Shown in pieces: positions 1,302-39,863 of a stretch of 64,000 bases of DNA. The position numbers and the translations under genes were made by a program. The stretch's first letter is position 1. Each line of letters starts with the position of its first letter. The notes under the pieces are model-generated. The model was not told where the DNA came from. It searched no databases and saw only the letters and a list, made by a program, of their open reading frames with translations. Source of the stretch: an uncultured Dyadobacter sp. (GTDB taxonomy: Bacteria; Bacteroidota; Bacteroidia; Cytophagales; Spirosomataceae); assembly GCF_946482605.1 (NCBI RefSeq), contig NZ_CAMLSE010000027.1, positions 1 to 64,000 of the forward strand, written 5' to 3'.

Positions 1302-1340
1302 AGGCCGGCGAGCCACTAACGACTCGCCGGCCTTTCTTTT
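1302..1340 (+). terminator. Rho-independent terminator
   Basis: A perfect 11-bp stem (AGGCCGGCGAG at 1302-1312 pairing with 1323-1333) with a 10-nt loop is followed by TTCTTTT. It sits directly after the Fe-S oxidoreductase stop and at the end of the convergent gene that follows. Confidence 0.85.
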
Positions 1341-1971
1341 AATTTGAAATAAAAGGCGCTTTCCGCAGCCAGGTGCCGTTATCGAGCTGGTCGATCATGA
1401 ACGCAGCGATATCCGCGGCGTCAATCTTACTGCCCGGCGAATCGGTCTCACTCACCTTCACCTCACTTCGGTTCCCGTTGAATTCAATGTACGGAACCCG
1501 CACCATGATCCAGTCGGCATCGCTGCCGGCCAGAACCGCATACGATTTCTGACGATCCTCGTGAATAACCGGGAATGTGGAGCGCATCCACTCGGTCGCT
1601 TTTCGCGTTTCGGGACCCTTGCGGTCCGATGGTGTATCGACATTCAAACCAGCAAGCAGCACGTATCGTACCGGTCGGTCTCCAATGGCGTTCAAAATAT
1701 GGATACTGGCCTGGCTCGCCACCAAAGGCTCGTCCTTCCGCTGCCCGACGGTGCTCAAAACAGCATCACAGCCCTGAACCAACACATCAACGGCATTCTG
1801 ATCCAGCACGTCGCCCCGAACGATTTCAATCAACGGACTTTTGGTGGTGAAATTTTCCGGATGCCGAAGCAGCAATTTGAGCCGGTACCCTTTTTCAATG
1901 AGTTGATCGACCAGATATTGACCTGTACGGCCACCGCCACCAATCAAGGCGATTCTATGAGATGTTTCCAT
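1339..1971 (-). CDS. NAD(P)-binding (NmrA/SDR-like) oxidoreductase
   Basis: A 210-residue Rossmann-fold protein of the atypical short-chain dehydrogenase or NmrA-like group. The N-terminus has the dinucleotide-binding glycine pattern IALIGGGGRTGQYL (about residues 8-21). It is followed by an Arg-rich strand end (KLLLRHPENF) typical of NADP binding and the DAVLSTVGQ strand. The length fits the single-domain NAD(P)H-binding family. Members act as soluble reductases or as redox sensors, and no substrate can be assigned here. The gene converges on the upstream Fe-S oxidoreductase and shares its terminator region. I see no operon partner. Confidence 0.8.
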   Translation of the reverse strand: METSHRIALIGGGGRTGQYLVDQLIEKGYRLKLLLRHPENFTTKSPLIEIVRGDVLDQNAVDVLVQGCDAVLSTVGQRKDEPLVASQASIHILNAIGDRPVRYVLLAGLNVDTPSDRKGPETRKATEWMRSTFPVIHEDRQKSYAVLAGSDADWIMVRVPYIEFNGNRSEVKVSETDSPGSKIDAADIAAFMIDQLDNGTWLRKAPFISN

Positions 1972-2137
1972 TTCTTTCTGATAAAAATTTAGTTATAGCA
2001 AAACATCCGGGTTGAAGTGCCCCGGAATTTGCAGAAGAGCCTGGCTCAATTCTGCGTGCGAAAACGGTGTTTTATCAGGAGATTTGAATGCGGTAAAGGT
2101 AGCAACCTGCCCGATCTTTCAAAAGAAACTTGTAAAA

Positions 2138-2661
2138 ATGCGTTACCAAAAGGTTGTCGTTACGTCTAATGTCTTAGATGTAGCCAACAAAATCATGAAT
2201 CCGGAGATCTATCAAAGTCAGTTTATAACCGAAATAAAAGAAAAGGTCCGCTCCGCCCAGTATGAGGCTTTGAAGACCGTTAACGTCAGGCTCATTCAGC
2301 TGTACTGGGAAATCGGCAAATCCATTGCTGAAAAACAGAATGAGAGCTGGGGAAAATCAATTGTGATATCGCTGTCCAAAAGAGCTGCAAGCCGAGTTCC
2401 CGAAATCGAGCGGATTTTCAGCCACCAATATCTGGTATATGGTTCAATTTTACACTGACTATCAATCAGATATAAATCTCCAACCACTGGTTGGAGAAAT
2501 TAGCTGGAGTAAGCATCTGGTCATTTTAGCCAAGTGCAAACGGAGCCAGGAAAGACATTGGAGTCGCGACCTACAATACCACTAACCGACTTCCTGAGAA
2601 ATACAGGCAGCTCCTCCCAAGCGAAGAGGAAATCGCGGCTAAAATTGGAGGCTTCTTTTAA
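2138..2661 (+). pseudogene. Decayed DUF1016 (YhcG-type PDDEXK) nuclease gene
   Basis: This is a broken gene of the DUF1016/YhcG family. Translation from ATG 2138 gives the DUF1016 N-domain signature (NVRLIQLYWEIGKSIAEKQN, then SWGKSIV). Around 2380 the match moves to another frame, which reads KELQAEFPKSSGFSATNIWY and continues to about ISWSKHLVILAKCK. Near 2545 it jumps again to KDIGVATYNTTNRLPEKYRQ and LLPSEEEIA, the usual C-terminus of the family, ending at TAA 2659-2661. The central stretch that holds the PDDEXK active site, around 200 residues in intact members, is missing. So there is at least one frameshift plus an internal deletion. A simple short hypothetical ORF (2012-2458) is the alternative reading, but it does not explain the two downstream matches. 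Confidence 0.75.
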
Positions 2662-2736
2662 TAATGCCATTCCCAAAAAGTTGAAAATAATTTTTCAGCG
2701 GCGTTTCCGAGCTCTTCAACGGAATCCCGTCCTCCT

Positions 2737-21426: not shown

Positions 21427-22725
21427 TTAGATCGCAGCCAGCGTTGAAGTACTTCCGGCCGGCCGCCCGGCGCGATACTTATCGAAATAAATGTTGCTGA
21501 TGGCAAGCAAAAGCAATCCGAGGCAGAACTGCAGATAAGAAAATTGCATCAGCACCCGCGACCAGCTCAGGTCTTTCATAAAAAACTCTTTGTAAAGCAA
21601 CAACCCCACGCTGCCCAAATAACCAATGCTTTCGCAGATATACACAAAAAATCCGGCATTGGCCTTGATACGGTACAAAGCGATCATCCGCTCGAATACC
21701 ACCGTTTGCAACACTGTGTAGGCCAAAAATAAGCCCAATCCTATCATGAGCATCCAGCAAAAACCATTGATGACGGCCTTTTCAAAAAGCAATGTCCCGA
21801 CGCCGATCAGGATAATACCCGCGAAAAGAATGAGATAGGTCAGCCGGAAGCCCGTCAGGTTATCGCGAACAAAAGCCAGCGCCCCGATGATGACGAGCAC
21901 CGCGATACCTGTGATCATTTCGGTCGTCGTAAGCACGCTGCTCCCCCAATGTGAATCGATCTCATTCCAGATCTCTATCGTGAAATTGTCACGAAAATCG
22001 CGCACCACCACGAGCGTCGCGTAGAATATAACCAGGCAGACGATCGGAAAACCGAATTGCTGCATCACGAGCCGCTTATCCTCCCGTGTCATAGGTACGC
22101 GCTCCGTACGCAAAGCCACATCCTCGGCCGTCGGCTTCGGGATCACCGACAACATCCACACAAACAACAGGAACAAAGGAAGGAAAAGCACACCCATAAA
22201 TGCCGGCATCCAGAACTCTGAAATACCCGGAAAAATGCCATGCACCTCAATATAAGTGGTTTTAAGAATGCCCGACGCCACCACCACGCTGATGTTCAAC
22301 CCCATTGCCAGCATTTCAGTAAACCGGCGGCCTTCGAGAAAGCTGAAAACAACGCCGTAAACCATCCCGAGCGGCAAGCCGTTCATGAAAAGAAAAACAA
22401 AGTTGTAAGGATAAGGACAAAGCCCAAAAAACAGCAGCGCGAGCTCCGCGACGAGGATCAGCCCGACGACCAGCCGCACGCGCGCCCCATGTTTTAATTC
22501 CGAAATCACCTTGATCCCCGCAAATTTCGACAGCGTATAGCCGGCAACCTGCGCAATGATCAGAACAGCCTTGTAGCTCACCTCACCCAGCTCCAACCCC
22601 TGGTACAATCCGGCATTGAAGGGCTTCCGGAACGCATACATACAAAAATAAGCCCCAAACGAAGCAATAATGGCCCAGGAAATAAAGAACGTATTCGATC
22701 TTGCAAGTGCTTCTTTCAGGCGCAT
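21427..22725 (-). CDS. DUF5690 family MFS-like transporter
   Basis: A 432-residue integral membrane protein with about 12 predicted helices, matching the DUF5690 family of MFS-like proteins. The start (ISWAIIASFGAYFCMYAFRK, then PFNAG) resembles organophosphate:phosphate antiporters such as GlpT/UhpT, which carry a similar YxxRK segment. It is the last gene of the five-gene run starting with the phosphonatase-like hydrolase, 18 bp after the PLP enzyme. The likely job is inner-membrane uptake of a phosphonate or related small phospho-compound. That is inference from position and the weak OPA likeness, because the family has no assigned substrate. A bidirectional terminator closes the operon. 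Confidence 0.85.
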   Translation of the reverse strand: MRLKEALARSNTFFISWAIIASFGAYFCMYAFRKPFNAGLYQGLELGEVSYKAVLIIAQVAGYTLSKFAGIKVISELKHGARVRLVVGLILVAELALLFFGLCPYPYNFVFLFMNGLPLGMVYGVVFSFLEGRRFTEMLAMGLNISVVVASGILKTTYIEVHGIFPGISEFWMPAFMGVLFLPLFLLFVWMLSVIPKPTAEDVALRTERVPMTREDKRLVMQQFGFPIVCLVIFYATLVVVRDFRDNFTIEIWNEIDSHWGSSVLTTTEMITGIAVLVIIGALAFVRDNLTGFRLTYLILFAGIILIGVGTLLFEKAVINGFCWMLMIGLGLFLAYTVLQTVVFERMIALYRIKANAGFFVYICESIGYLGSVGLLLYKEFFMKDLSWSRVLMQFSYLQFCLGLLLLAISNIYFDKYRAGRPAGSTSTLAAI

Positions 22726-22743
22726 ATCGTCAAATGTTGAGTT

Positions 22744-24102
22744 TTATACCAAAACTGAGGCCGTTTCGATGGCTTTTTCTAAAATCTGCAATGCTGCTGT
22801 CAGCTGCTCGCGGGTGATGATAAGGGGCGGCGAAAGCTGGATCACATTGCCCTGCGACACCTTAAAGCTCAGGCCGTTTTTAAGACACTCGTACATCACG
22901 GCTTCCGCTTCCTGAACGGCTTTTTCTTTCGTTACACGGTCCTTCACCAGTTCCACACCCCACAGCAATCCGATACCCCTTACTTCGCCGATCAATGGAA
23001 ACTTGTCTTGCAGGCTGGTAAGCTCTTCGCGCATGAATGCAGCATCCGCATTCACTTTGTCCAGTACATCGTTTTGTTCGATAAAGTCCAGCATTGCCAG
23101 CGCGGCCACACTGCCCAACGGGCTTTTCTCATGCGTAAAATGCCCCAGTGAAACACTCTGCGCCACATTGTACCGATCGCGGGCGACAATAGCGGCCATC
23201 GGCATTACGCCTCCGCCCAGCCCCTTACCCAGGCATACAATATCAGGTTCGATTCCATAGTGCTCAAAAGCGAACATTTTGCCCGTACGGCCGAACGCAA
23301 TAGGGATCTCGTCCAGGATGAGCAGCACTTGATGTTTGGTACAAATCGCTCTCACGCGGTCCCAGTAGGCTTGTGAAGGAATTTGCACATCGGTATTCCG
23401 GATGGTTTCGATCACAAAAGCACCGATATCCCCTTCCTTTTCGATGACGTATTCGAGGTAGTCGGCATAGGGCAGGTCACCATTGCCGGCAGCCGTAAAA
23501 GGCCCCCGGTAGGTCATCGGAGGCGGAATGCGCTCTACGCCGGGCATCAGTGGCCCCATGTCTTTCCGGAAGTCCAGCTCGCCTCCTGCTGAAATAGCGT
23601 CCAGCGACGCACCATGGAACGAATCCCAAAGCGACACAACTTTATGCCTGCCCGTCACAATCCGGGCGAGTTTCAGCGCCATACTGATAGCCGATGTACC
23701 GCCCGGGGCAAACAGCACCCGGTTCAGGTCGCCGGGCATCAGACTGCCCAGTTTTTTGGCCAGTTCGATCGCCGGCACATTGGTATACCTGCGCGGGGAA
23801 AACGGCAGGATATCCAGCTGTTCTTTCAGTTTTTCAATGATATACGGATGCCGGTAACCCAGCTGGTGGACATTGTTGCCGTGAAAATCCATGTAACGCT
23901 TTCCCTGCACGTCGGTCAGGTAAATGCCCTCGCACGATGCCAGTACATCCAGGCAAGGCGTGGAAAGCGATTGGTGTAAAAAATACTCCGCGTCTTCATG
24001 CAGGTAGCCCGAAGTTTCGGGATCGCTGATCACCGCATACCAGTCGTGACGCGCAGATGATAAATTAATGTCGCCTTCAGTTCTGTTGTGTACCTCTGCC
24101 AT
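22744..24102 (-). CDS. Class III PLP enzyme, PbfA-like
   Basis: A 452-residue fold-type I PLP enzyme of the class III aminotransferase group. It shows the substrate/PLP segment FAPGGTSAISMALKLARIVT, the PLP Asp in ILLDE-type VLLILDEIPIAFGRTGKMFA, and the Schiff-base Lys in DIVCLGKGLGGGVMPMAAIV. The N-terminal third (YMDFHGNNVHQLGYRHPYII, LPFSPRRYTN) is typical of the 'aspartate aminotransferase family' proteins found in phosphonate clusters. One such protein, PbfA, is described as an (R)-1-hydroxy-2-aminoethylphosphonate ammonia-lyase that yields phosphonoacetaldehyde. Ordinary AEP:pyruvate transaminase activity is the alternative. The start is 15 bp after the alkaline-phosphatase-like gene. 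Confidence 0.85.
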   Translation of the reverse strand: MAEVHNRTEGDINLSSARHDWYAVISDPETSGYLHEDAEYFLHQSLSTPCLDVLASCEGIYLTDVQGKRYMDFHGNNVHQLGYRHPYIIEKLKEQLDILPFSPRRYTNVPAIELAKKLGSLMPGDLNRVLFAPGGTSAISMALKLARIVTGRHKVVSLWDSFHGASLDAISAGGELDFRKDMGPLMPGVERIPPPMTYRGPFTAAGNGDLPYADYLEYVIEKEGDIGAFVIETIRNTDVQIPSQAYWDRVRAICTKHQVLLILDEIPIAFGRTGKMFAFEHYGIEPDIVCLGKGLGGGVMPMAAIVARDRYNVAQSVSLGHFTHEKSPLGSVAALAMLDFIEQNDVLDKVNADAAFMREELTSLQDKFPLIGEVRGIGLLWGVELVKDRVTKEKAVQEAEAVMYECLKNGLSFKVSQGNVIQLSPPLIITREQLTAALQILEKAIETASVLV

Positions 24103-24117
24103 ACGCAGGTTTGAATG

Positions 24118-25782
24118 TTATTTGACAAAAAGCTTGTCTGCCGGAATCAGCTGCTTGGGAATACCCGGGCCGCGATAGAATGCATCGAGCCAAAAACCGC
24201 CGCCATTGTTATAATACTGTATCCTGATGGGGTGTTTGCCTGCTTTCAGCTCGATGGAACCCGTTTTTTCCTCTACGCCATGGTTCCCGTCATTGTTCAC
24301 CACTTCCTTACCATCCACAAACAGCTTGCTGCCATCATCGGATTGGGTTGCAAACTGGTATTTACCCTCCTGATCGATTTGGATAAAACCTTCAAACTGC
24401 ACCGCAAAACCCGCCCCTTCCTTGCCTGCCATTGCCTCTATATCCTCCTTCACCATTCCAAACTCCGGTGCCACCCAGGTTTTACCCTTTTTCAATTGCG
24501 CAAAATCCGGGACCTTGTTCATTTCTTTACCCGAATAGAAGGTCGCCATAAGGCCATTCCCCCGGCCGGATTTCACCAACCTAAAATACGCAGTTGAAAG
24601 CAAACTCGGGTTACCCTTATCATCAAAAGTCCTGGCTTTCACAACGGTTGTTTTATCGACCGCAAAAGGCTCCTTATAAACCGGAGCATTCGCATCGGGA
24701 TCCGACCCATTGGTCGTGTAGCGGGTAACGCCGTTTTCCGCTTTGGTTTCGATACGCACCGTCGCCGACCTATCCACATACAGCCCCCCGGCCTGCTGAT
24801 ACAGCTTTCGCTCGGGATAAACAACCGGCATAGCCACGCTCTTCTCACCGAGCCAGAGATTTTCAGGCTCTTCAAAACCATTGAAAACAGGTTTCACCGG
24901 GCGACCGATCCAGGCATACGGTTGTTTCAGGCCCAATGCAAATGCAATCGTGGAAGCCAGGTCATAAGTATACACCTGCTGTTTGATCTGATATCCTTTT
25001 TTCACATCCGCACCATAAAACACCCCGGCGATCTCCGCTTCCTGCGGCGTTGCGCCACCATGCCCGTAACCCAGCCCGCCATGATCGGCCCAAAGGATCA
25101 CCAGCGTATTTTCGGCCATGCCGGCTTCCTTAATGCCCGCCAGAACCTGTCCGATCAGCGAATCGGTTTTGGCCACCGACTTGTAATACTCCGGAGAACC
25201 GTGACCTCCATGGTGTCCGGCATGATCCACGTGATCGAAATGCACAAAACCGAGTACCGGCTTTTTGCTTTTGATATATCTTATAAAATCGGTGGCGGTG
25301 GAATCTTCGGTTGAGAAATGCTTGTCGTAATTCACCGCATTCTTTTGAAAAAGTCGACCGAATCCGCCCCAATGGTACACTGCGCCGATCTCCGCATTGG
25401 GCTGAGCCTTGTGTAAGATGCTGAAAATCGTAGGGAAACGCCCATCTGCCTCCTGCGCAATGGGCGGCAGGGTGTGGTCGTCCATTTCCCAGTCGTTGTT
25501 GATGATCCCATGCTGCTCCGGACCGGCACCCATGATCATCGACGCCCAGTTCTGGCTGCTGGCCGAGGTCAGTACCGTCCGCACGTTCCATTTAACGGCA
25601 CCATTCGCCACCATCTGATCGATGACAGGCGTTTCGGCTTTTTGGATACCATCAGGACTCAGCCCGTCGACACCGATCACGATCACGTGCCGGACGCCCG
25701 CAGGCTTCTCGTCTGACTGAGGATGAAAGGCCGTCAGAAGCCACGAAGCCGCCGACAACACGCAGGTAATTCTTGCAAGCAT
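24118..25782 (-). CDS. Secreted alkaline-phosphatase-superfamily enzyme with PA14 domain
   Basis: A 554-residue exported enzyme (signal peptide about residues 1-20). Residues about 30-300 form an NPP-like alkaline phosphatase superfamily domain. Metal ligands are in IVIGVDGLSPDG (Asp 39), HFDHVDHAGHHGGHG and WADHGGLGYGHGG. The nucleophile is probably Ser 75 in SASSQNWASMIMG, which aligns with the Thr-Phe-Pro-Asn-His motif of NPPs. A chitobiase/hexosaminidase C-terminal-like domain (about 325-405) and a PA14 domain (about 410-550, ATQSDDGSKLFVDGKEVVNN) follow. Both are common in carbohydrate-active proteins. It is embedded in the phosphonate operon, so release of aminophosphonate from a glycan or lipid ester is a reasonable inference. 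Phosphodiesterase or phosphatase activity on other compounds is possible. Confidence 0.85.
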   Translation of the reverse strand: MLARITCVLSAASWLLTAFHPQSDEKPAGVRHVIVIGVDGLSPDGIQKAETPVIDQMVANGAVKWNVRTVLTSASSQNWASMIMGAGPEQHGIINNDWEMDDHTLPPIAQEADGRFPTIFSILHKAQPNAEIGAVYHWGGFGRLFQKNAVNYDKHFSTEDSTATDFIRYIKSKKPVLGFVHFDHVDHAGHHGGHGSPEYYKSVAKTDSLIGQVLAGIKEAGMAENTLVILWADHGGLGYGHGGATPQEAEIAGVFYGADVKKGYQIKQQVYTYDLASTIAFALGLKQPYAWIGRPVKPVFNGFEEPENLWLGEKSVAMPVVYPERKLYQQAGGLYVDRSATVRIETKAENGVTRYTTNGSDPDANAPVYKEPFAVDKTTVVKARTFDDKGNPSLLSTAYFRLVKSGRGNGLMATFYSGKEMNKVPDFAQLKKGKTWVAPEFGMVKEDIEAMAGKEGAGFAVQFEGFIQIDQEGKYQFATQSDDGSKLFVDGKEVVNNDGNHGVEEKTGSIELKAGKHPIRIQYYNNGGGFWLDAFYRGPGIPKQLIPADKLFVK

Positions 25783-25910
25783 ATATATCTCAAATTAGAA
25801 TTCCATATAGTCTTGACTGCCAAACAGCCGCCTGACACAATCGGCCGTCTGGCCGCATCAGGCTAGCAAATCACCTGAGCAACTAACGTATAATCAATAT
25901 ACGCATAGCA

Positions 25911-27038
25911 TTATGACTGGTAAGTCCCGCCAACCACTTCATCACACAGGCCGAACGAAAGGGTCATACCATTACCACCAAGTCCATTGATGATCGTAAC
26001 GCCACTTTCCGGCTTGATGACGATCTCTGTCCTCCCGTTTGTCATCTTGGGGTATATCCCGTGCCAGGTCTGAAACACCTTCGGCGATTTGAACCGGGCA
26101 AACGTACCCAGGTAATCGAGGATCATGGTATTAATAAATTCCCGGTCGAAGGGATCGAATGTCAGCGCGTATTCGTGCGAATCTCCCACTGTTATTTCCC
26201 CCAGGCCATTTTGCGACGCCATTACGTGAATGCCCCATTTCAGATGTTCGGTATAATCCCGTTCATACCTCGCTTTCAGGCCTGGCAATGATGGCGCTGC
26301 CTGAAAACCGTGGTAGTGGATCAGCGAAAGGCCGCCGCACAATGCCGGACCGATCTTCCAGTTATCGGGCTGCGCTTCGAGACGCAGCATCTGAAGTTTG
26401 CATTTGGTTAATGGGGCCGCAGCGAACTCCGAAGGATACAAAGTTTCGAAATCCTGCCCGCTGCATACGAATATCTCGTCCGCCGACCAGCTTTGGGTCC
26501 CCGAATATACCGCAGGGTATTCCACCTTCGAAATAGCTGTATTCCAGATAAATTCAACTCCTAATGTGGCTTCGAGGTAGCCTGGAATGGCAGCAATAGC
26601 CTCGCGAGGATCCACGATCATTTCGTCAGCGGAATACAATGAACCCAGCAAACCATCCGCATTCACCGCCGGCGACTTTTCCAGCGTTTCCAATGCATTC
26701 AGGAAACTTACCGGCCTATATGGGCTCGTATCCACAAACTGCCGGATCACTTCCAGCTCGTCCTGATGATAAGCCATATGCAGGCTTCCCCCTTCATGCG
26801 ACCAGCATTTGGCTCCCGCCAACACCTCTTTCCAGATACTTTTGGCATGCAATGCACGCTCATATAACTTTCCTTCCGGCTGACCGATCGGCCATACCAT
26901 CCCAAAATTACGGATCGAAGCTCCGATAGCCTTCGACGAACGCTCCACCACCGTAACCTTATAACCACGTGTAGCCAAAGCCCGTGCAGTTGCCAACCCG
27001 ACGATCCCGGCACCGATCACTATCGCAGATTTACTCAT
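25911..27038 (-). CDS. FAD-dependent amine oxidase, TIGR03364/PbfD-like
   Basis: A 375-residue DAO-type flavoenzyme. The N-terminal Rossmann motif is AIVIGAGIVGLATARALATR, followed by VTVVERSSKAIGASIRNFGM. The C-terminus has the second FAD contact TIINGLGGNGMTLSFGL. The ASIRNFGMVWPIGQPEG segment is characteristic of the TIGR03364 clade, known for genomic linkage to phosphonatase-like hydrolases. The proposed reaction is oxidative deamination of an aminophosphonate, giving an aldehyde. I chose the ATG at 27038 rather than the TTG four codons upstream. The gene is 29 bp after the phosphonatase-like gene and 128 bp before the phosphatase-superfamily gene. Confidence 0.87.
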   Translation of the reverse strand: MSKSAIVIGAGIVGLATARALATRGYKVTVVERSSKAIGASIRNFGMVWPIGQPEGKLYERALHAKSIWKEVLAGAKCWSHEGGSLHMAYHQDELEVIRQFVDTSPYRPVSFLNALETLEKSPAVNADGLLGSLYSADEMIVDPREAIAAIPGYLEATLGVEFIWNTAISKVEYPAVYSGTQSWSADEIFVCSGQDFETLYPSEFAAAPLTKCKLQMLRLEAQPDNWKIGPALCGGLSLIHYHGFQAAPSLPGLKARYERDYTEHLKWGIHVMASQNGLGEITVGDSHEYALTFDPFDREFINTMILDYLGTFARFKSPKVFQTWHGIYPKMTNGRTEIVIKPESGVTIINGLGGNGMTLSFGLCDEVVGGTYQS

Positions 27039-27067
27039 GCTGTCAGTCAAATAATGTAAATATTGGA

Positions 27068-27772
27068 TTAACCCTTTACAGCCATCACCTGACTGCCCGA
27101 AAGAATACCGATCACCTCAGCAATGTTATCGATGACGTGCGTGGGTTTGTATGGCAACAGCTCTTCGCGGGTAAATGCCCCGGTTGTAACACCGATTACA
27201 TATTTACATCCTGCATTAATCCCTTCATTGATATCCACCTCGGTGTCGCCCACTTTCGCAATCACGTCGCCGGAAGCTATACCCAATGCGGCCATGATCT
27301 TCCTGATCATATCCGGATAGGGGCGCCCATGAGGCACCTCATCACTCGCCACGAGGTAATCGATCTTATCTTCCCAGCCCAAACGACCGACAATCACATC
27401 CGCAATGTCGCGTGAAAAACCGGTATTCAATGCAATTTTGACATGATCCGCACGAAGTGCAGCAAAAGTCTCCTCCACATTCGGCAATGGGGCAATCTCG
27501 GTGGTCGTTTGGTAAAAAGCGATCATACCGCTTACGAAATGCGTGTGAATCTTCGCCACCAGCTCCGGGGTGATCTTGGATGGATCAGCCTCGAACACTT
27601 CCAGCATCATTTTAATGGCCAGGGGCTTCTCATACCCCATTAGAGGATTCACATCCTCAATGGCGATATCATACCCTTCTGACCGCATGGCTTGCTGAAA
27701 AGCGATTCCCACAAAATTTTTGTCACGGACAGTCGTACCCGCCATATCGAAAACAACCAGTTCTATCGACAT
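27068..27772 (-). CDS. Phosphonatase-like HAD hydrolase (PhnX-like, TIGR03351)
   Basis: A 234-residue haloacid-dehalogenase hydrolase. Motif I is VFDMAGTTV with the nucleophile Asp 9 and the acid/base replaced by Ala, the DxAGT form of phosphonoacetaldehyde hydrolases. The cap domain keeps MGYEKPLAI, where the Lys matches the Schiff-base Lys region of PhnX. Motif II is IALNTGFS and motifs III/IV are HGRPYPDMI and KVGDTEVDINEG. It should split the C-P bond of phosphonoacetaldehyde or a close relative into aldehyde and phosphate. It is the first gene of the five-gene run. The operator-like palindrome lies about 200 bp upstream. Confidence 0.88.
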   Translation of the reverse strand: MSIELVVFDMAGTTVRDKNFVGIAFQQAMRSEGYDIAIEDVNPLMGYEKPLAIKMMLEVFEADPSKITPELVAKIHTHFVSGMIAFYQTTTEIAPLPNVEETFAALRADHVKIALNTGFSRDIADVIVGRLGWEDKIDYLVASDEVPHGRPYPDMIRKIMAALGIASGDVIAKVGDTEVDINEGINAGCKYVIGVTTGAFTREELLPYKPTHVIDNIAEVIGILSGSQVMAVKG

Positions 27773-27969
27773 CTTACACTTATAAAATTGGTGAACTAAT
27801 ACTGAACTCCTAACCCAATGCCACGCCAGCTTGCTGGTTCAAATTTGTTAAGCCAAATTAAACATTCAGGTTGTTTATCAATAAATCTGCTTTTGATTTA
27901 CAGCTTAAAAATATTGACAAATCAGTGAAGTCACAAATAAAAGTTAACTTATATTTAAATTCATGGACA

Positions 27970-27998
27970 CAAAAGTATCTACCGCTACAAAAGTAGCG
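27970..27998 (-). promoter_or_regulatory. Putative promoter and operator of the phosphonate operon
   Basis: Two minus-strand TACTTTTG elements (complement of 27970-27977 and 27988-27995) match TAnnTTTG. The second overlaps a palindrome CGCTAC-AAAA-GTAGCG (27983-27998, 6-bp perfect arms). An imperfect copy lies in front of the XRE-cupin gene. The leader to the hydrolase start would be near 200 nt. The rest of the 295-bp interval is AT-rich and I see no other gene in it. Confidence 0.5.
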
Positions 27999-28067
27999 CG
28001 TAAACTCCTGTTAAAAGTTAAGCTAATGTTAATTAATATTTAACTTGAAGAATCCACAAGAATGGGA

Positions 28068-28646
28068 CTACTGCGCCTCGTTGAAGAAGTAAATGACCAG
28101 AAGCAACGCCTCGTCACAATCGCTGCATTTGAGATTATGCAGTTCGTTGGCATCAAAAAACATTGAATCACCCTGGTTAAGGACATATTTGTTCTTCCCG
28201 ACCGTATATTCCACAGCCCCATCCAGGACATACTTGAATTCAAAAGCATTGGTACGGACCATCGGCCTGCGGGCGTCCTTTTCCAACCTGAGCAGCACGA
28301 CATCGATATGATTGTCCTTAAACTGCTTGCTGAATATCCGGTGATAGAAAAACCCTTTCGCATTCTCCTTTGTAAATGGCTGATACTCTTCCTTTCTGCG
28401 GATGAGCACATTCTCACCGGGTGCGGTGGAAATGATGTCCTTGAAAAACACATTGAGGTCGATATCCAACGCCTTGATCAGCCCGAGCATCACCGGCAAC
28501 GAGGGGATGGTCCGGCTGTTTTCGATCTGCGACACCAGGCTTTTAGTCACCCCGGCTTCGTCGGCGATTTCCTGAAGGGTGACTCCCTTACCTTTTCTGA
28601 TTTCCTTTAATTTGTTGCTGATCTGGAAAAGAATGTCTTCCTGCAT
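28068..28646 (-). CDS. XRE-family regulator with cupin domain
   Basis: A 192-residue one-component regulator. The N-terminal helix-turn-helix of the XRE/Cro type is clear (LKEIRKGKGVTLQEIADEAG, then VTKSLVSQIEN). The C-terminal half (about 105-185) is a cupin 2 barrel with FEFKYVLDGAVEYTVG, YVLNQGDSMFFDANELH and NLKCSDCDEALL. The usual metal-binding His residues are only partly kept, so the barrel may bind a ligand instead. It lies directly upstream of and in the same direction as the phosphonate-type genes. Control of that operon and of itself is inferred from position and from shared palindromes. Confidence 0.87.
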   Translation of the reverse strand: MQEDILFQISNKLKEIRKGKGVTLQEIADEAGVTKSLVSQIENSRTIPSLPVMLGLIKALDIDLNVFFKDIISTAPGENVLIRRKEEYQPFTKENAKGFFYHRIFSKQFKDNHIDVVLLRLEKDARRPMVRTNAFEFKYVLDGAVEYTVGKNKYVLNQGDSMFFDANELHNLKCSDCDEALLLVIYFFNEAQ

Positions 28647-28802: not shown

Positions 28803-29603
28803 TCAGGCAGGATGCCCTGTCACAGGATAATGACTCAGACCGTCCCTTACCCCTTTCAAAATGTCTTCCATCTTCAGATAGGCGGCCTTTTGTACATTCG
28901 GTCCAAAACTTACGCGCGACACGCCCAGGCGCTGAAGTACGTCGAGATCAGGCGCCCCTGCACGTGCAAGAATGTTTACCGGCACCTTCAATGCGGCCAC
29001 CAGGGTCGAGATCGACTCCTCCTCCCGGACGAAGATAGGATATACCGAATCGGCGCCCGCCTCCACATATGCGCGCCCGCGCTCGATCGCCAGCGCAAGC
29101 TTCTGCGATTCCGGGAGATCCGTCGATACCAGAAATACGTCTGTCCTGGCATTGATAAAAAGTCTCGTGTTTTCACGCTCCGCCGTTTTGACGATCAGCT
29201 TTATTTGCTCCACCTGCTCCTCAACCGGCACCAGCTCCCGCGAACGAACGTCACTGTCTTCGAAATTGATCCCGGCAACTCCCGCGGCAATCAGGCGGCG
29301 GATATTGGCTTTGAATGTCTCACGGTCGGCAGCATAGCCGGTTTCAATATCCACGGTAACCGGTACACTCACCGATTTCACGATTTGAGAGACGATCGTG
29401 AGCAGGAATTCAAAGGGAATATGTTCTCCATCCTCGTACCCATGCGCCCGCGCAATGGCTGCACTCGCAGTAGCTACGGCAGGGTAACCCAAATCTTCCA
29501 GCATCAATGCACCCGCAGCGTCCCAGATATTGGGAAGTATCAGCATTTGACCGCTATGGTGTAGTTTTTTGAGCAAATCGGCCTTTTCCGACTGTGTGCT
29601 CAT
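28803..29603 (-). CDS. ICL/PEP-mutase superfamily protein
   Basis: A 266-residue TIM-barrel enzyme of the isocitrate lyase/phosphoenolpyruvate mutase superfamily. It shows LPNIWDAAGALMLEDLGYPA, VATASAAIARAHGY, metal-site VTVDIETGYA, AGINFEDSD and LFINARTDVFL. The gating loop reads FEDSDVRSRELVPVEEQ. It lacks the Lys of true PEP mutase (EDK) and the Cys of isocitrate or methylisocitrate lyase (KxCGH), so neither of those reactions is supported. Oxaloacetate or phosphonopyruvate-type cleavage remains possible. I use the ATG at 29603, 13 bp after the upstream gene. The same gene pair, this and a CMD-like protein, is common in bacteria. Confidence 0.82.
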   Translation of the reverse strand: MSTQSEKADLLKKLHHSGQMLILPNIWDAAGALMLEDLGYPAVATASAAIARAHGYEDGEHIPFEFLLTIVSQIVKSVSVPVTVDIETGYAADRETFKANIRRLIAAGVAGINFEDSDVRSRELVPVEEQVEQIKLIVKTAERENTRLFINARTDVFLVSTDLPESQKLALAIERGRAYVEAGADSVYPIFVREEESISTLVAALKVPVNILARAGAPDLDVLQRLGVSRVSFGPNVQKAAYLKMEDILKGVRDGLSHYPVTGHPA

Positions 29604-29616
29604 CCGGATAGGGCGA

Positions 29617-30075
29617 CTATTGAACATGAGCGGGCGATTCGTTAACGGCAACCTGGTCGGTGATCAGAATGCGGTTCCAGGCGCTGATCGCGACCACGCC
29701 CATTACCACAGCCTTGGTATACTCTTCCCCCAACAGCTCCACCGCGCGGCTATAAACAGCGTCGCTCACCCCATGATCAGCGATCAGCGTCACCTCCTCG
29801 GTAAGCGCCAGAATGGCCTTTTCTTCCTCGCTGTAAATATTTGCCTCACGCCAGGCGCTTAACATATATATGCGTTGCTCGCTCACGCCCAACTCGCGAG
29901 CCTGGCGGGCATGCATATCCAGACAAAAGCCGCAGCCGTTGATCTGGGAAGCACGGATCTTGATCAGCTTATAATGCACTTTGTCGAGACCCGTCGAGGA
30001 AACGTACTTTTCAAGTTCGCGGACGGCAGCAAATGCCTGCGGCGAGATTTCACTGGTTGGTTTGCGGTGGGACAT
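29617..30075 (-). CDS. Carboxymuconolactone decarboxylase-like / AhpD-type protein
   Basis: A 152-residue all-helical protein of the CMD/AhpD family. The redox or general-base site is INGCGFCLDMHARQARELG, with the CxxC (Cys-Gly-Phe-Cys) followed by His, the AhpD core pattern. Family members reduce peroxiredoxin or act as decarboxylases, and the CxxC points to the alkylhydroperoxidase-type group. The gene is divergent from an AraC regulator and upstream of the ICL/PEPM-like gene by 13 bp, so these form a short operon. Either the ATG at 30075 or that at 30081 could start it. Short repeats of AATGGGTG type lie just upstream (about 30087-30112). Confidence 0.85.
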   Translation of the reverse strand: MSHRKPTSEISPQAFAAVRELEKYVSSTGLDKVHYKLIKIRASQINGCGFCLDMHARQARELGVSEQRIYMLSAWREANIYSEEEKAILALTEEVTLIADHGVSDAVYSRAVELLGEEYTKAVVMGVVAISAWNRILITDQVAVNESPAHVQ

Positions 30076-30290
30076 GATCAATTTTTAATGGGTGAATGGG
30101 TCAATGGGTGGATTCGCTCACTCAAAATTAAATCCACCACCGGCTACTTGCGTGATCCATTTTCAAACGTTTTGGATAGTCCAATTACGCGGATTGACAG
30201 GACGTACTTCGAAATTAAAAAGTGATTAATTCCATCGTTACAGAAACTTTTGCAGCGACTTCTGTTATTTGAATTTTATAATATTGCAAC

Positions 30291-34337: not shown

Positions 34338-34503
34338 GGATCAACGAAAGAAGCGGGCTGGCTTTCCAGGAAGGCTGGTCTGGTGAATACCGGGAACACG
34401 GCGAATGTCCCCGGTATCGGATGTCCCCTGCCAGGCAATGCTTGGAACCATGAATGGCGGGTGGACTCGGTTTAACAGCTTAACCATTAAACATCAGACA
34501 AAT

Positions 34504-37500
34504 ATGGTGAATTATTACCATAAGGGGCTCCCCTTATTCAAAAAATGTATGCGCATTTCTACGCTTATACTGGGTATTAATGTTCTGACAACCGCTCTGC
34601 TGATGGCCGGGCCTACGGAGGCCCAGCATATCAGCATGGATGTGAGGCAAAGTCGTGTCAAAACGGTTCTCAGGCAGATTGAACAACAAACCGGTCTCAC
34701 TTTTGCATTCGACGAAAAGCTCGTGCGTAAAGCACCCGAGATCACCATCTACGCGCTCGGCCTGCCGGTGCCTTCGATCCTCAAAATGATTGAGCAGCAG
34801 ACCGCCCTGGAATTCAGGCAGGTAGGCAACATGATCGGCATTACGGAGCGTCCCAAAACGGAAATCATGCGGGCGGTATTGCCGGTGTCGCAAGTGCTCG
34901 CGAAGCCCGTCAAAGGCAAGGTGACCGATGATAAAGGTGAGGCGCTTCCGTCGGTGGCGATCCGGCTCAAGGGCACCAACGAAGGAACCATGACCGACAT
35001 AGACGGCAATTACACGATCGACGTGGCCGGCGATGAATCGATCCTGATATTCAGCTTCATCGGCTTTACGGCCCAGGAAGTAATGGTAGGCGCACGGACC
35101 ACCGTGGATGTGGCACTGAAACCGGATGTTTCCACCCTGACCGAACTTGTGGTTACAGGTTACGGAGCGCAACGCAAGAAGGACCTGATCGGCGCGGTTT
35201 CGGTGGTGGATGTGGAGCAATTAAAGCAAACTCCCGATGGACAAGTCGCCAATCAGTTGCAGGGCCGGGCCTCAGGGGTTACCATTCTCAGCTCAGGGCA
35301 GCCCGGCGAAACGCCGCAGGTGCGCATACGCGGATTGAACACATTCGGCAATAACTCGCCATTGTATGTGGTGGACGGTGTACCGACAACCTCCATCAGT
35401 GACCTCAATACCAACGACATCGCATCGATGCAGGTACTGAAAGACGCTGGTTCGGCTTCGATTTACGGATCGCGTGCGGCAAACGGGGTCATTATCATCA
35501 CCACCAAAAAGGGTAAGGACAAGGTCAAGATCAATTACAATGCGTGGTTCGGCGTTCAAACACCTCCGGGCGGCAATGTGTGGAACACACTGAACCCTAT
35601 GGAACAGGGGCAGCTGAAATTCCAGGTGCAGAAAAACTCGGGGCTCACCGTCGGTGACGACCAGTATGGCTTTGGCACTACGCCCGTGATCCCCGACTAT
35701 ATTCTGCCTACCGGTGCCAAAGAGGGCGATCCGGCGACCAATCCGGACCTTTACTATGTGAATCCGAACTACACTTCGGTGGATGATTACAATACATTCA
35801 ACCAGATCGTGAAAGCCAACAAGACCGGCACCGACTGGTTCCATGAAATCTTCAAGGCGGCTCCATCCACCAGTCACAACATTTCGCTGAGCGGCGGCAG
35901 CGACCAGGGTAATTACCTGTTCTCGCTGAATTATTTCAACCAGCAGGGCGCATTGACCAACACCTATCTCAAACGATACACCCTGCGTTCCAACAGCCAG
36001 TACAACATCGGCAAACACGTCCGCATTGGCGAGAACCTGGCCTATTCCATCTCGGACAATCCTAAAAGCGCCCTCTCGGACGGCGGTTCGGCCATCGCAT
36101 TCTCCTTCCGTATGCAGCCCATCGTTCCCGTGCACGACATCATGGGCAACTACGCGGGCAGCCGCGCCTCGGGTATGGGCGACGCCTTCAACCCCGTGGC
36201 TATGCGCGACCGGACCCGCTATGACAAAGGGCTGGACAACCGCCTTTTCGGTAATATCTTCGCCGAAGTCGATCTTTTCAAATACTTTACATTCCGCACC
36301 AGTATGGGCGGCGAGAACTATTCCGGAAGATGGAACTCGTTTGCATTCCCGTCCTACGAAAACAAGGAGAACAGCAATACCAACACCTATTCGGAAGGTT
36401 CCTATTCCGGCTTCAACTGGACCTGGACCAATTTGCTGACTTTCCACAAAACCATGGGAAAACACGACCTGACCGTGGCGGCAGGTACCGAAGCTTACAG
36501 CGGGAAGTATTACGAGCTCGGAGGCAGTACGCAAGGCTACTTCTCCTTCGACCCTAATTATATGAACTTGGGCACCGGCTCCGGTACGCGTACCAATTCG
36601 AGCAGCCGCTCTGCAGATGCATTGTATTCGCTGCTGGGCCGGCTGGATTACATTTACAACGACAGATACCTCTTCGGTGCGATTATCCGTCGCGACGGTT
36701 CATCCAAATTTATCAACGAGCGTTACGGCTTTTTCCCGGCTGTGAGCGCGGGATGGCGGATTTCGCGTGAGGATTTCATGCGTGGCGCAACCTGGATCGA
36801 CGACCTGAAGCTCCGCGCAAATTACGGGATCATGGGTAACCAGATCAACGTGACTTCCGGCAATGCATTCACGACTTACAGTTCCAACCGTCGTAGTTCG
36901 TACTACGACCTCGGCGGTACCAGCGGCTCCGGTGCTTTGGAAGGATTCGAAAAAAGCCAGATCGGAAACCCCAATGCGGTTTGGGAAAAAAACATCAGTA
37001 CCAACATCGGTATCGACGCCACATTCTTCAAAGGAAGGCTGGATGTAATTGCTGATTATTATATCAAGGAAATCAAGGACCTGCTTTTCAATCCTGCACT
37101 GATAGGCACCGCGGGAGGCGGTTCGGTGCCGTTTGTGAATATCGGCCAGATGAAAAACCGGGGTATCGACCTGCAAATCGACGGAAAGTTTGACCTCACA
37201 CCAGACCTGAAACTGAATACAACGCTGACCTTCACCACCTACAACAACAAGATCAAAAAGGTCACCAACAGCACCAATTATTTCGATCTGGAAGGCCGAG
37301 GTTTCGATGGTGCTTCGATCGTCCGCAACCAGGTAGGAAGCTCCATCGGGCAGTTTTTCGGCTATAAAGTAATCGGCTTCTGGAACTCACAGGAAGAAAT
37401 CGCCACGGCCAACGCAGAGGCGGTGAAACAAACCGGCGACCCCAATGCCGTTTTTCAGGATGGTGCATCGGTGGGCCGTTTCCGGTATGAGAACATCAAT

Positions 37501-38064
37501 GACGACAGTCAGATTACCGCTGCCGACCGTCAGATGCTCGGCAACCCTAACCCCGATTTCAGCTATGGCCTGAACATTGGTTTAAGCTATAAACATTTCG
37601 ATTTCAGCCTCTTCCTTTACGGGGTGCAGGGCAACCAGCTCTGGAACCAGACCTTATGGTGGAGCGACTTCAATTCCTCCCGTTCGGGTGCGAAGAGCAA
37701 AACAGCGCTGTACAATTCCTGGACGCCTGAAAACCACAATGCCAAAGCACCCATTCAGGAAAACGCCAGCTCGTTCAGTACCATCAATGTACCGAATTCT
37801 TATTTCGTGGAAGACGGCTCGTACCTGCGGGCAAAGAACCTGCAAATCGGTTACACCTTCCCTGCTCCTTTGATGAAGAAGATCAGGGCACAGCAGTTCC
37901 GTGTATACCTGCAGGCAACCAACCTCTTTACGCTCACCGGCTACTCCGGCCTGGATCCGGAAGTGAGCCGGAATGCGAGTGGCAATCCTACCGTTTTCGG
38001 CATTGACGAAGGCTCGTACCCCTCGTCGAGACAATACACGGTGGGCCTTAACCTTACTTTTTAA
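34504..38064 (+). CDS. SusC/RagA-family TonB-dependent receptor with STN domain
   Basis: A 1186-residue SusC-type outer-membrane transporter. After the signal segment there is a secretin/TonB N-terminal (STN) domain (about 45-120, MDVRQSRVKTVLRQIEQQTG), which is the signalling arm to FecR. A carboxypeptidase-like domain (KGKVTDDKGEALPSVAIRLK) and the SusC plug motifs LVVTGYGAQRKKDLIGAVSV and YVVDGVPTTSISDLNTNDIA follow, then a barrel. The start 34504 (MVNYYHKGLPLFKKCM) is preferred to an upstream ATG. It pairs with the SusD gene 20 bp downstream for uptake of a glycan or other nutrient. No glycoside hydrolase is linked, so the substrate is unknown. Confidence 0.93.
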   Translation: MVNYYHKGLPLFKKCMRISTLILGINVLTTALLMAGPTEAQHISMDVRQSRVKTVLRQIEQQTGLTFAFDEKLVRKAPEITIYALGLPVPSILKMIEQQTALEFRQVGNMIGITERPKTEIMRAVLPVSQVLAKPVKGKVTDDKGEALPSVAIRLKGTNEGTMTDIDGNYTIDVAGDESILIFSFIGFTAQEVMVGARTTVDVALKPDVSTLTELVVTGYGAQRKKDLIGAVSVVDVEQLKQTPDGQVANQLQGRASGVTILSSGQPGETPQVRIRGLNTFGNNSPLYVVDGVPTTSISDLNTNDIASMQVLKDAGSASIYGSRAANGVIIITTKKGKDKVKINYNAWFGVQTPPGGNVWNTLNPMEQGQLKFQVQKNSGLTVGDDQYGFGTTPVIPDYILPTGAKEGDPATNPDLYYVNPNYTSVDDYNTFNQIVKANKTGTDWFHEIFKAAPSTSHNISLSGGSDQGNYLFSLNYFNQQGALTNTYLKRYTLRSNSQYNIGKHVRIGENLAYSISDNPKSALSDGGSAIAFSFRMQPIVPVHDIMGNYAGSRASGMGDAFNPVAMRDRTRYDKGLDNRLFGNIFAEVDLFKYFTFRTSMGGENYSGRWNSFAFPSYENKENSNTNTYSEGSYSGFNWTWTNLLTFHKTMGKHDLTVAAGTEAYSGKYYELGGSTQGYFSFDPNYMNLGTGSGTRTNSSSRSADALYSLLGRLDYIYNDRYLFGAIIRRDGSSKFINERYGFFPAVSAGWRISREDFMRGATWIDDLKLRANYGIMGNQINVTSGNAFTTYSSNRRSSYYDLGGTSGSGALEGFEKSQIGNPNAVWEKNISTNIGIDATFFKGRLDVIADYYIKEIKDLLFNPALIGTAGGGSVPFVNIGQMKNRGIDLQIDGKFDLTPDLKLNTTLTFTTYNNKIKKVTNSTNYFDLEGRGFDGASIVRNQVGSSIGQFFGYKVIGFWNSQEEIATANAEAVKQTGDPNAVFQDGASVGRFRYENINDDSQITAADRQMLGNPNPDFSYGLNIGLSYKHFDFSLFLYGVQGNQLWNQTLWWSDFNSSRSGAKSKTALYNSWTPENHNAKAPIQENASSFSTINVPNSYFVEDGSYLRAKNLQIGYTFPAPLMKKIRAQQFRVYLQATNLFTLTGYSGLDPEVSRNASGNPTVFGIDEGSYPSSRQYTVGLNLTF

Positions 38065-38084
38065 CATTCTCAAAGCGACGCGAC

Positions 38085-39863
38085 ATGAAGAAGTTCCTCC
38101 AATATATGGCCGTTCTTTGCCTGACGGCAGGTTTCATATGCCTGCAAGGATGCCAGGATGATTTTTTAGATAAACCCGTGCAAGGCGCATTGGGCGACGA
38201 CGTGCTGGCCAATGCCAAAGGTATCGATGGCCTGCTCACGGGCGCATATGCCGCACTCGACGGCCAGGGTGATTTCACCGGCGGCAGCGGGTGGGAATCC
38301 CCACCGGACAACTGGGTGTACGGCGCCATTCCGGGCGGAGACGCGCACAAAGGCAGCGACGGTGGTGACCAGACCCCCATCAGCGCCATTGCCACATTCA
38401 GCAGCGGTGCCGACAATGGCTTTTTCAACAGTAAATGGAAAGCATTGTACGAAGGGGTTTCCCGCTCCAACACGGTGCTGAAAGTACTGGCATTGCTGGA
38501 AGGCATGCCGGACGCGGAAAAAGCAAACATCGAGGGCCAGGCGCGCTTCCTCCGGGCGCATTATTATTTTGAGCTGAAAAAAATGTGGAACATGGTACCG
38601 TGGATCGACGAAACGACCACAGATTTTAACCAGCCCAACGACAAGGACATCTGGCCGATGATCGAAGCCGATTTTAAAGCGGCCTATGAAAAGCTGCCCG
38701 CTACCCAGTCACTCGTCGGGAGAGCCAATAAATGGGCCGCAGGTGCTTATCTGGCCAAAACCTACCTGTACGAGAAGAAATACACCGACGCAGTCAAGGT
38801 TTTCACGGAGGTGATCGGCAGCGGTGTGACTACCAACGGTTTGAAATACGACCTGGTCTCTTTCAAGGACAACTTCGACGCCGCGACCAAGAACAACGCA
38901 GAGTCGGTATTCGCGATCCAGATGGTCGCCAATGACGGCACCCTGGACATTACCAACGCCAACCAGGGCGGCATGCTTAACTTCCCGTACGGAACCGGCG
39001 CACCTTTCAGCTGCTGCGGCTTTTTTCAACCTACGCAAATGCTCGTCAACATGTACCGCACCGATGCGGGCGGCCTGCCTTTCCTCACGGATTACAACAG
39101 CCACAATGTAAAAAACGACATGGGTATTGCCTCCGCAGCGGCATTCACGCCGGATGCCGGGAACCTCGATCCACGGCTTGACTGGACAGTAGGTCGCCGC
39201 GGTATTCCCTACCACGACTGGGGCATTTACCCTGGCATGAACTGGGTCCGCGACCAACCCTATGGCGGCCCGTATGCGCCCAAAAAGAACATTCACCGCC
39301 AGAAAACGCAGGACCTGTACGCCGACCTGAGCTCCTGGGCACCCGGCAACGCGATCAATGTGCTGGTGATCCGTTTTGCCGATGTGCTGCTTCTGGCCGC
39401 AGAAGCCGAGGCTAACGGCGGAAGTCTGGCCAAAGCCGAAGAATATGTCAACCGGGTACGTACGAGAGCGGCGGACAAAACGGGCTGGCTTTACAAGTAC
39501 ATCACCGATTCCAATCCGCTGGGCGGCTTTTCGGCCACACCTGCGGCGAACTACGTGATTAAGCCCTATCCCGCAGGCACACTGGCTGCAAAGGGTAAAG
39601 AAGGCGTGCTGAACGCTATTTATTATGAAAGAGGGATCGAGCTGGCGATGGAAGGTCACCGTTTCTTCGATCTCGTGCGTTGGGGAAAAGCCGAAACTAC
39701 CGTCAATGGCTATTTCGGGTACGAATCCAAAATCACCACCGACCTTGCCGGCGGCAAATACCTGGAAGGTAAAAACAACTACTTCCCGATCCCACAGTAC
39801 CAGATCGATATGAGTGTTGTCAATGGCGCAGCAATGCTGAAACAAAATCCGGGATACAACTAA
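38085..39863 (+). CDS. SusD/RagB-family surface lipoprotein
   Basis: A 592-residue SusD-like nutrient-binding lipoprotein. The signal peptide has the lipobox LQGCQDDFLDK with Cys 23. The N-terminal TPR-like scaffold (GIDGLLTGAYAALDGQGDFT, RFLRAHYYFELKKMWNMVPW) and the C-terminal NVLVIRFADVLLLAAEAEAN, AEEYVNRVRTRA and ELAMEGHRFFDLVRWGKAET blocks are the family signatures. The final residues (NNYFPIPQYQIDM) also fit. It caps the SusC barrel and captures the ligand. A perfect 12-bp hairpin lies just after the stop codon. Confidence 0.95.
   Translation: MKKFLQYMAVLCLTAGFICLQGCQDDFLDKPVQGALGDDVLANAKGIDGLLTGAYAALDGQGDFTGGSGWESPPDNWVYGAIPGGDAHKGSDGGDQTPISAIATFSSGADNGFFNSKWKALYEGVSRSNTVLKVLALLEGMPDAEKANIEGQARFLRAHYYFELKKMWNMVPWIDETTTDFNQPNDKDIWPMIEADFKAAYEKLPATQSLVGRANKWAAGAYLAKTYLYEKKYTDAVKVFTEVIGSGVTTNGLKYDLVSFKDNFDAATKNNAESVFAIQMVANDGTLDITNANQGGMLNFPYGTGAPFSCCGFFQPTQMLVNMYRTDAGGLPFLTDYNSHNVKNDMGIASAAAFTPDAGNLDPRLDWTVGRRGIPYHDWGIYPGMNWVRDQPYGGPYAPKKNIHRQKTQDLYADLSSWAPGNAINVLVIRFADVLLLAAEAEANGGSLAKAEEYVNRVRTRAADKTGWLYKYITDSNPLGGFSATPAANYVIKPYPAGTLAAKGKEGVLNAIYYERGIELAMEGHRFFDLVRWGKAETTVNGYFGYESKITTDLAGGKYLEGKNNYFPIPQYQIDMSVVNGAAMLKQNPGYN

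Follow-up and report, generated by a model that had tools for sequence, protein, structure and literature searches.

The DNA analysed here, referred to below as the window, is a stretch of 64,000 nucleotides from an uncultured Dyadobacter sp. (contig NZ_CAMLSE010000027.1), which carries at positions 21427-28646 a run of six open reading frames (ORFs), all on the minus strand, that we read as an aminophosphonate operon. In order, these encode an XRE-cupin transcriptional regulator (192 aa; 28068-28646), a PhnX-like HAD hydrolase (27068-27772), a flavin adenine dinucleotide (FAD)-dependent amine oxidoreductase of the TIGR03364, PbfD-like type (25911-27050), a phosphodiesterase-type enzyme of the alkaline phosphatase superfamily (AP; 24118-25782), the pyridoxal phosphate (PLP) enzyme PbfA (22744-24102), and a DUF5690 membrane protein (21427-22725). 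The genes lie where, and in the order in which, a preliminary description of this DNA had placed them, and their Pfam domains agree with it. From the HAD gene to the DUF5690 gene the intergenic gaps measure 17, 128, 15, and 18 bp, and a gap of 295 bp separates the regulator from the HAD gene. The genome is Dyadobacter-like, with a PbfA that is 94% identical to its counterparts in D. jiangsuensis and D. fermentans.

This set of genes recurs well beyond the window. A scan for PbfA gave 330 loci, the best 80 of which were kept and are therefore biased to close kin (27 from Dyadobacter, 53 from elsewhere). By tblastn, PbfA, DUF5690, the FAD enzyme, and the HAD hydrolase occur together in 27/27 Dyadobacter loci, a recurrence which argues that the arrangement is not due to chance; an ORF-based tally places the HAD gene in 25 of the 27, those of L005 and L028 being found by tblastn. 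Flavobacterium loci typically run SusC-SusD-AP-PbfA-second phosphoesterase-DUF5690-FAD-HAD and have the regulator gene on the opposite strand; the second phosphoesterase position is taken by proteins that are unrelated to one another (AP superfamily, purple acid phosphatase, or beta-propeller/PF04185, one representative of each having been scanned). A SusC gene is present in 5/27 Dyadobacter loci and 18/53 others, and the operon in the window has no SusC-SusD pair.

Two enzymes of the set are predicted to act on the aminophosphonates themselves. The PLP enzyme (Pfam Aminotran_3), which had been described as PbfA-like, passes the curated PbfA equivalog model NF049939 with 741.8 bits (cut-off 525) and shows 64% identity over 98% with a Vibrio plasmid protein. 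The flavoenzyme (Pfam DAO) likewise proves to be of the TIGR03364 type that had been suggested for it (418.2 bits, cut-off 285.1); its gene is listed with a TTG start, and an ATG lies four codons further in. Activities have been published for PbfA, PbfC, and PbfD (PMC8154272, PMC10590968), and PbfD1 carries the TIGR03364 annotation (PMC10590968). The assayed PbfD1 and PbfD2 oxidise N-methyl-2-aminoethylphosphonate (N-methyl-AEP) and 2-aminoethylphosphonate (AEP), and PbfD2 is reported to substitute for PhnW where the latter is missing (PMC8154272, PMC10590968). PbfA together with PhnX outside Proteobacteria has also been mentioned in print (PMC12366243). PbfA genes that stand apart from all other members of the set were seen as well (L029-L041 and L176-L180, Chitinophagaceae and others), and two genomes with such lone PbfA genes, G005 and G008, carry DUF5690 elsewhere, adjoining PhnW (L161, L162).

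The HAD hydrolase (Pfam HAD_2), a predicted phosphonoacetaldehyde hydrolase, is best matched by the PhnX-like model TIGR03351, whose cut-off of 218.9 bits it misses at 193.8 bits, and also misses the PhnX model TIGR01422 (118 bits, cut-off 220); a Flavobacterium ortholog (L066) passes TIGR03351 at 234.2 bits. As noted in the preliminary description, the protein has both the DxAGT motif and the lysine of the cap, D9 and K49 corresponding to the PhnX nucleophile D12 and Schiff-base lysine K53. It can be called PhnX-like, with these two residues in place, and cannot be called a cut-off-passing PhnX. In an alignment of 46 HAD proteins with Bacillus cereus PhnX, made up of that of the window and 45 from a cluster of 46, whose 184-aa member was omitted, residues D12, A14, T16, G50, K53, T126, R160, D186, and D190 are kept in all 46, H56 is replaced by alanine in 43, and C22 by asparagine in 42, the window having A52 and N19 at these positions.

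No cut-off-passing PhnX or PhnW was found in 27/27 Dyadobacter genomes, some of them drafts or metagenome-assembled genomes, in searches for which the 14 control genomes provided no positive control; both models do detect their targets in other loci of this study (331 and 468 bits, both in L062). PhnJ is also missing from 27/27 Dyadobacter genomes, here with a positive Escherichia coli control. A genome search for PhnA gave no match in any genome and is hence no evidence of absence, although proteins of L174 and L175 reach 496 and 515 bits with its model. Because PbfA makes phosphonoacetaldehyde and these genomes yielded neither PhnJ nor a PhnX or PhnW above cut-off, the HAD hydrolase of the operon is the likeliest consumer of this aldehyde. 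In this respect, for the C-P step, the route can be regarded as self-contained, as previously supposed; it is not so as a whole, because the operon in the window holds neither an outer-membrane porter nor an enzyme for acetaldehyde. A second PhnX-like HAD protein (about 102-114 bits to TIGR01422) is encoded outside the operon in some Dyadobacter (G001:C15, G407:C3, G417:C22, G417:C33, G419:C22).

The AP gene encodes the superfamily enzyme with a PA14 domain that had been expected at this place, with matches to Phosphodiest (PF01663, 106.1 bits against a cut-off of 23), CHB_HEX_C_1, and PA14. Its N-terminal part (aa 1-314; 24841-25782) comprises a probable signal peptide, recognised by reading, and a catalytic domain that is closest to nucleotide pyrophosphatase/phosphodiesterases (NPPs), with Xac NPP as the best fold match; with 23.6 bits, the protein misses the cut-off of 407.55 for the phosphonoacetate hydrolase PhnA (TIGR02335). 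The C-terminal CHB_HEX_C_1/Fn3-associated and PA14 domains (24118-24840) are absent from a short form of the enzyme. Conservation of the gene beside the HAD, FAD, and PLP genes, on which the preliminary description had staked its case, is found in 25/27 Dyadobacter loci and is in part limited to the catalytic domain: 16 loci encode the whole protein, 9 encode a short form with ORFs of 312-330 residues, and 2 lack the gene. The short forms correspond to the catalytic part, matching residues 1-314 in eight cases and 30-311 in one, and L008 retains a scrap resembling the lost C-terminus.

Outside Dyadobacter, AP is present in 14/53 loci, with a SusC-SusD pair directly upstream in 13 of the 14 (in the other, the contig is cut), and PbfA follows it directly in 10 and after one intervening gene in 4, the representative of which has a metallo-beta-lactamase domain. 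One Flavobacteriaceae-type locus (L181, genome G190) has four phosphoesterase-like genes around PbfA, namely AP, one of metallo-beta-lactamase type, one of purple acid phosphatase type, and a second of the AP superfamily. AP also adjoins PbfA directly in 3/3 distant PhnWAY-type clusters. In the DUF5690 survey described below, it is carried by 6/47 loci, all six with PbfA nearby, which amounts to 6/8 loci with PbfA against 0/39 without (p 2.6e-6), as counted with an HMM of its own (hidden Markov model) at 400 bits or more and leaving aside weak matches of 70-109 bits in 7/47 loci. The three Pbf papers (PMC8154272, PMC12366243, and PMC10590968) make no mention of "alkaline phosphatase", and the two in which "phosphodiesterase" was looked for make none of that term either.

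The last gene of the run encodes a member of DUF5690 (PF18943, 481.1 bits against a gathering cut-off of 25) that has no NCBIfam match and no match to MFS_1, the family of the major facilitator superfamily (MFS); MFS_1 (PF07690) appears in 4 of 120 DUF5690 homologs, among the matches listed. When aligned by hhalign with a profile of six organophosphate:phosphate antiporter (OPA) sequences, DUF5690 reaches a probability of 93.3% in local mode (E 2.8e-7, each E-value being for a single comparison) and 97.2% in global mode, and its R33, K67, and R242 fall on R45, K80, and R269 of GlpT. Six non-OPA carrier controls give at most 0.72%, including CynX, which was cut at its start, and AdeQ, which we take not to be an MFS protein. 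The AlphaFold2 model of DUF5690 (mean confidence score, pLDDT, 88.3) has SLC37A4/G6PT as its top fold matches.

A PDB search with the DUF5690 profile gave no match, so the assignment rests on the profile comparison, the residues, the fold, and the replacement of one carrier by another. The last of these is seen in the three genomes that have PbfA and the FAD enzyme without DUF5690, where an OPA transporter adjoins the FAD gene or lies one gene on in 3/3. Compared singly with DUF5690, the three replacing proteins align weakly (0.5 to 1.3%), only the pooled OPA profile being strong, and that of L175 has glutamine in place of GlpT K80. Loci L173-L175 hold clusters of PbfA, TIGR03364, PhnW, and OPA genes; L174 and L175 also contain PhnA, and L174 has a PhnY-like gene besides. 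The AP proteins of these three loci are 818-836 aa long, with two PF01663 stretches in the two that were scanned. DUF5690 therefore looks like a diverged GlpT/UhpT-type transporter that keeps the phosphate-binding residues.

To describe the surroundings of DUF5690 at large, we sampled 395 Bacteroidota genomes evenly around a centre, G001, a Dyadobacter found through PbfA; for all genomes but this one, phosphonate genes played no part in the choice. PF18943 passes its cut-off in 42/395 genomes at 47 places, one of which is G001's own (L160); two of 49 places in all were left out as below the family cut-off, and L161-L166 lie outside the counts. The loci were mostly taken with about 9 kb per side and scored with enzyme HMMs built from the 80 PbfA loci, with limits of 300 bits for FAD and 400 bits for PhnW. 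At 34/47 places, FAD, HAD, PhnW, or PbfA lies at most three genes from DUF5690 (FAD at 23, HAD at 26, PhnW at 8, and PbfA at 7), and within the same stretches such enzyme genes make up 62/276 genes within three positions of DUF5690 against 2/385 genes further out. Across genomes, TIGR03364 passes its cut-off in 32/395, 29 of them with DUF5690 where 3.4 are expected (Fisher p 1.4e-30), the two genes being within three genes of each other at 23 places and apart in six genomes; PbfA does so in 15/395, 12 with DUF5690 against 1.6 expected (p 1.6e-10). As at most four candidates were scored per genome and the genomes are related, the counts are lower bounds and the p-values only a guide. Without G001, they become 33/46 places, 28/31 for TIGR03364, and 11/14 for PbfA.

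At these 47 places and score limits, FAD occurs without PhnW at 23, PhnW without FAD at 8, and both at none, a frequent exchange in which the FAD gene beside DUF5690 in most cases takes the place of PhnW, which acts on AEP. The exclusion is not strict: L121 has PhnW and, on the other strand, a FAD gene at 260 bits, and three clusters lacking DUF5690 have both. At 13 of the 47 places (L118, L123, L134, L138, L141, L142, L143, L146, L147, L148, L151, L153, and L156) no FAD, HAD, PhnW, or PbfA gene lies within three genes of DUF5690, and ten neighbouring genes from nine of them show no consistent family; L148 adjoins a beta-propeller phosphoesterase, L143 an Exo_endo_phos gene, and L156 a DAO-type flavoenzyme.

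In public annotation, DUF5690 is followed by TIGR03364 and a phosphonoacetaldehyde hydrolase on a plasmid of the alphaproteobacterium Novosphingobium, and by phnX and phnW in the gut Bacteroidales Parabacteroides distasonis and Bacteroides finegoldii; four plasmid records matched DUF5690, and three of them were inspected. Together with the 34/47 Bacteroidota places, these records bear out conservation of DUF5690 beside phosphonate genes, which had been set in advance as a test of the preliminary description. The control genome of Caulobacter vibrioides, a laboratory organism, also has a DUF5690 gene above cut-off.

The regulator was correctly described as an XRE-cupin protein, with HTH_3 and Cupin_2 both above cut-off; an assignment as PuuR was rejected (40.7 bits against 211). 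It is found in 21/27 Dyadobacter loci and in 13/53 others, where its gene is oriented the other way. The gap between it and the HAD gene contains three copies of an operator-like 17-bp near-palindrome on the minus strand, GTTAAATATTAATTAAC at 28028-28044, a second at 27943-27959, and a third, just 5' of the HAD gene, at 27791-27807, with none elsewhere in the 64 kb and 0.02 expected, a count that is no independent test because these copies themselves supplied the pattern. Among 172 loci, 29 exact sites occur in 20, all of them Dyadobacter (20/27), and every one lies just 5' of the HAD gene. Such placement suggests that the XRE-cupin protein controls the operon locally, in response to substrate, via these candidate sites. 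Predicted sigma-70 promoters and terminators were no more numerous than in shuffled sequence (8 against 10.6 and 7 against 8.5) and were not used.

Two further genes on the minus strand lie just upstream of the regulator, one of the PF13714 PEP-mutase/isocitrate-lyase family (28803-29651) and one of the CMD (AhpD-like) type (29617-30081). The former was considered as a link to phosphonate synthesis through PEP mutase and rejected, its only NCBIfam match at E of 1e-20 or below being PrpB (86.5 bits against 354.4); what we take to be the PepM signature is not seen in its product. By tblastn, the pair is missing from many Dyadobacter loci, and for this reason the PF13714 gene was left out of the operon. 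A SusC/SusD-like pair (34405-39863, plus strand; named by reading) was likewise rejected as part of the operon, as it lies on the other strand, 5.8 kb beyond the regulator.

The family models, the kept residues, and the conserved neighbourhood support the aminophosphonate catabolic operon of the preliminary description, and we consider it probable that the six genes, by their predicted activities, form a substrate-induced system for aminophosphonate release, uptake, and breakdown. The NPP-like enzyme, secreted or a lipoprotein, would cut P-O esters of aminophosphonates outside the inner membrane, its likeliest substrates being esters of (R)-1-hydroxy-2-aminoethylphosphonate (R-HAEP), such as phosphonolipid head groups. 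Judging from its gene context, fold, and residues, DUF5690 would then carry the liberated aminophosphonate across to the cytoplasm, with phosphate perhaps leaving in return. There, by their curated family membership, PbfA would convert R-HAEP to phosphonoacetaldehyde and ammonia, and the TIGR03364 flavoenzyme would convert AEP and/or N-methyl-AEP to phosphonoacetaldehyde, doing the job of PhnW where PhnW is missing. The HAD hydrolase, given its retained catalytic residues, is predicted to split phosphonoacetaldehyde into phosphate and acetaldehyde, and the XRE-cupin protein may sense a compound of the pathway and act at the three 17-bp sites that precede the HAD gene.

The function of the secreted enzyme is where this scheme has its most serious competitor. 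The enzyme might instead be a general NPP-type phosphodiesterase or phosphatase for ordinary phosphate scavenging, inactive on phosphonate esters, that shares an operon with the cytoplasmic enzymes, acting as proposed, only because both parts supply phosphorus. This is possible, if not what we expect: the AP subfamily follows PbfA and not phosphonate loci generally, both at the DUF5690 places and in the PhnWAY-type clusters, and a general phosphatase is not expected to track an enzyme of HAEP. A different division of labour inside the cell, in which the FAD enzyme oxidises hydroxy-AEP to hydroxyphosphonoacetaldehyde, the HAD hydrolase makes glycolaldehyde and phosphate from it, and PbfA is a side branch, seems unlikely to us. 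HAEP oxidation is suggested by the TIGR03364 description quoted in PMC10590968, and the active sites lend the idea something: in the 395-genome sample, FAD-linked HAD proteins lack H56 in 21/21 cases, whereas C22 is retained by both HAD proteins whose only partner of the two is PhnW, and H56 by one of them. In a further locus, L062, the PhnW-linked HAD is a true PhnX (331 bits). The split is not clean, however, because the HAD of L121, which occurs with PhnW and PbfA, has neither residue. Moreover, the assayed PbfD1 and PbfD2 act on N-methyl-AEP and AEP, the phosphonoacetaldehyde made by PbfA has the HAD hydrolase of the operon as its likeliest consumer, no PhnX above cut-off having been found in 27/27 Dyadobacter genomes, and the exchange with PhnW described above ties the FAD gene to an AEP enzyme.

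That DUF5690 is not the importer and acts as a UhpC-like sensor, or exports a product, is in our view quite improbable. UhpC, a sensor by annotation, does keep the same three residues, and other carriers can lie near: B. finegoldii has FucP and another MFS gene within the stretch shown, and in P. distasonis (L183) an annotated inorganic phosphate transporter (886-3141) stands two genes upstream of DUF5690-phnX-phnW, an arrangement that would also fit phosphate exchange. Against this, DUF5690 is the sole carrier inside the phosphonate gene run in the Parabacteroides, B. finegoldii, and Novosphingobium records, no histidine kinase gene adjoins it in the window, and OPA transporters take its place where it is missing.

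If DUF5690 is indeed an importer, a more far-reaching and tentative reading is that the family comprises aminophosphonate:phosphate antiporters of Bacteroidota, gut Bacteroidales included, and of some Alphaproteobacteria, and, jointly with this, that the PbfA-tracking AP enzyme is a dedicated R-HAEP-ester hydrolase. As one phosphate would be exported per phosphonate imported, such loci would serve nitrogen and carbon acquisition, venting phosphate, and not phosphorus scavenging.

The main new yield is a proposal for the function of DUF5690, of which we found no such assignment in the open-access literature searched; neither DUF5690 nor PF18943 is mentioned in the full texts of that collection. 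A family of unassigned function, present in 42/395 sampled Bacteroidota genomes, thereby gains a specific candidate role as an aminophosphonate carrier, a role that would extend to the gut genera Bacteroides and Parabacteroides, which have it beside phnX and phnW. The link between AP and PbfA points to a candidate enzyme for freeing hydroxy-AEP from larger molecules where it is a lipid head group, and would, if so, join the pathways for free aminophosphonates to bound sources. A hydroxy-AEP lipid has reportedly been described, to go by the title of a 2001 report by Watanabe. The exchanges of FAD with PhnW and of DUF5690 with OPA transporters, in turn, reveal steps common to different clusters.

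Two of the novelties claimed in the preliminary description have precedents. It had placed the non-ABC transporter outside the standard AEP pathways, yet a GlpT-family 2-AEP permease, AepP of Pseudomonas putida, is already known and is needed for AEP as a nitrogen source (PMC8316502). AepP and, by our prediction, DUF5690 are alike as MFS carriers of the OPA type beside AEP enzymes with the phosphate-binding residues kept; the likeness of AepP to GlpT is still plain from its sequence (the paper gives 27.75% identity), whereas DUF5690 forms a Pfam family of its own and the protein in the window does not match MFS_1. The phosphatase-superfamily enzyme, too, had been set apart from known routes, and Flavobacterium SusCD clusters induced by low phosphate (PUS, PusCD) have already been noted to hold phosphoesterases, phosphonate-degrading enzymes, and carriers (PMC8115612). 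Relatives of the operon share that layout; the operon in the window differs in having no SusCD and an XRE-cupin regulator of its own, PUS being defined by low-phosphate induction, and neither PbfA nor DUF5690 is named in the text of that paper.

Within the AP superfamily, the secreted enzyme resembles the branch of NPPs, phosphonate monoester hydrolases, and PhnA in fold and PF01663, and departs from it in a serine at the likely nucleophile position, as read from the alignment, in the extra CHB_HEX and PA14 domains, and in a score far under the PhnA cut-off. The closest relatives in chemistry are the PbfA/PhnX and PbfD/PhnX pathways (PMC8154272, PMC10590968), in which PbfA and PbfD-type enzymes likewise feed phosphonoacetaldehyde to a HAD hydrolase. 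Compared with these, the system described here has a PhnX-like HAD in place of PhnX, a secreted NPP-like enzyme coupled to PbfA, and a DUF5690 carrier, and it belongs to clusters of Bacteroidota, some of them with SusCD.

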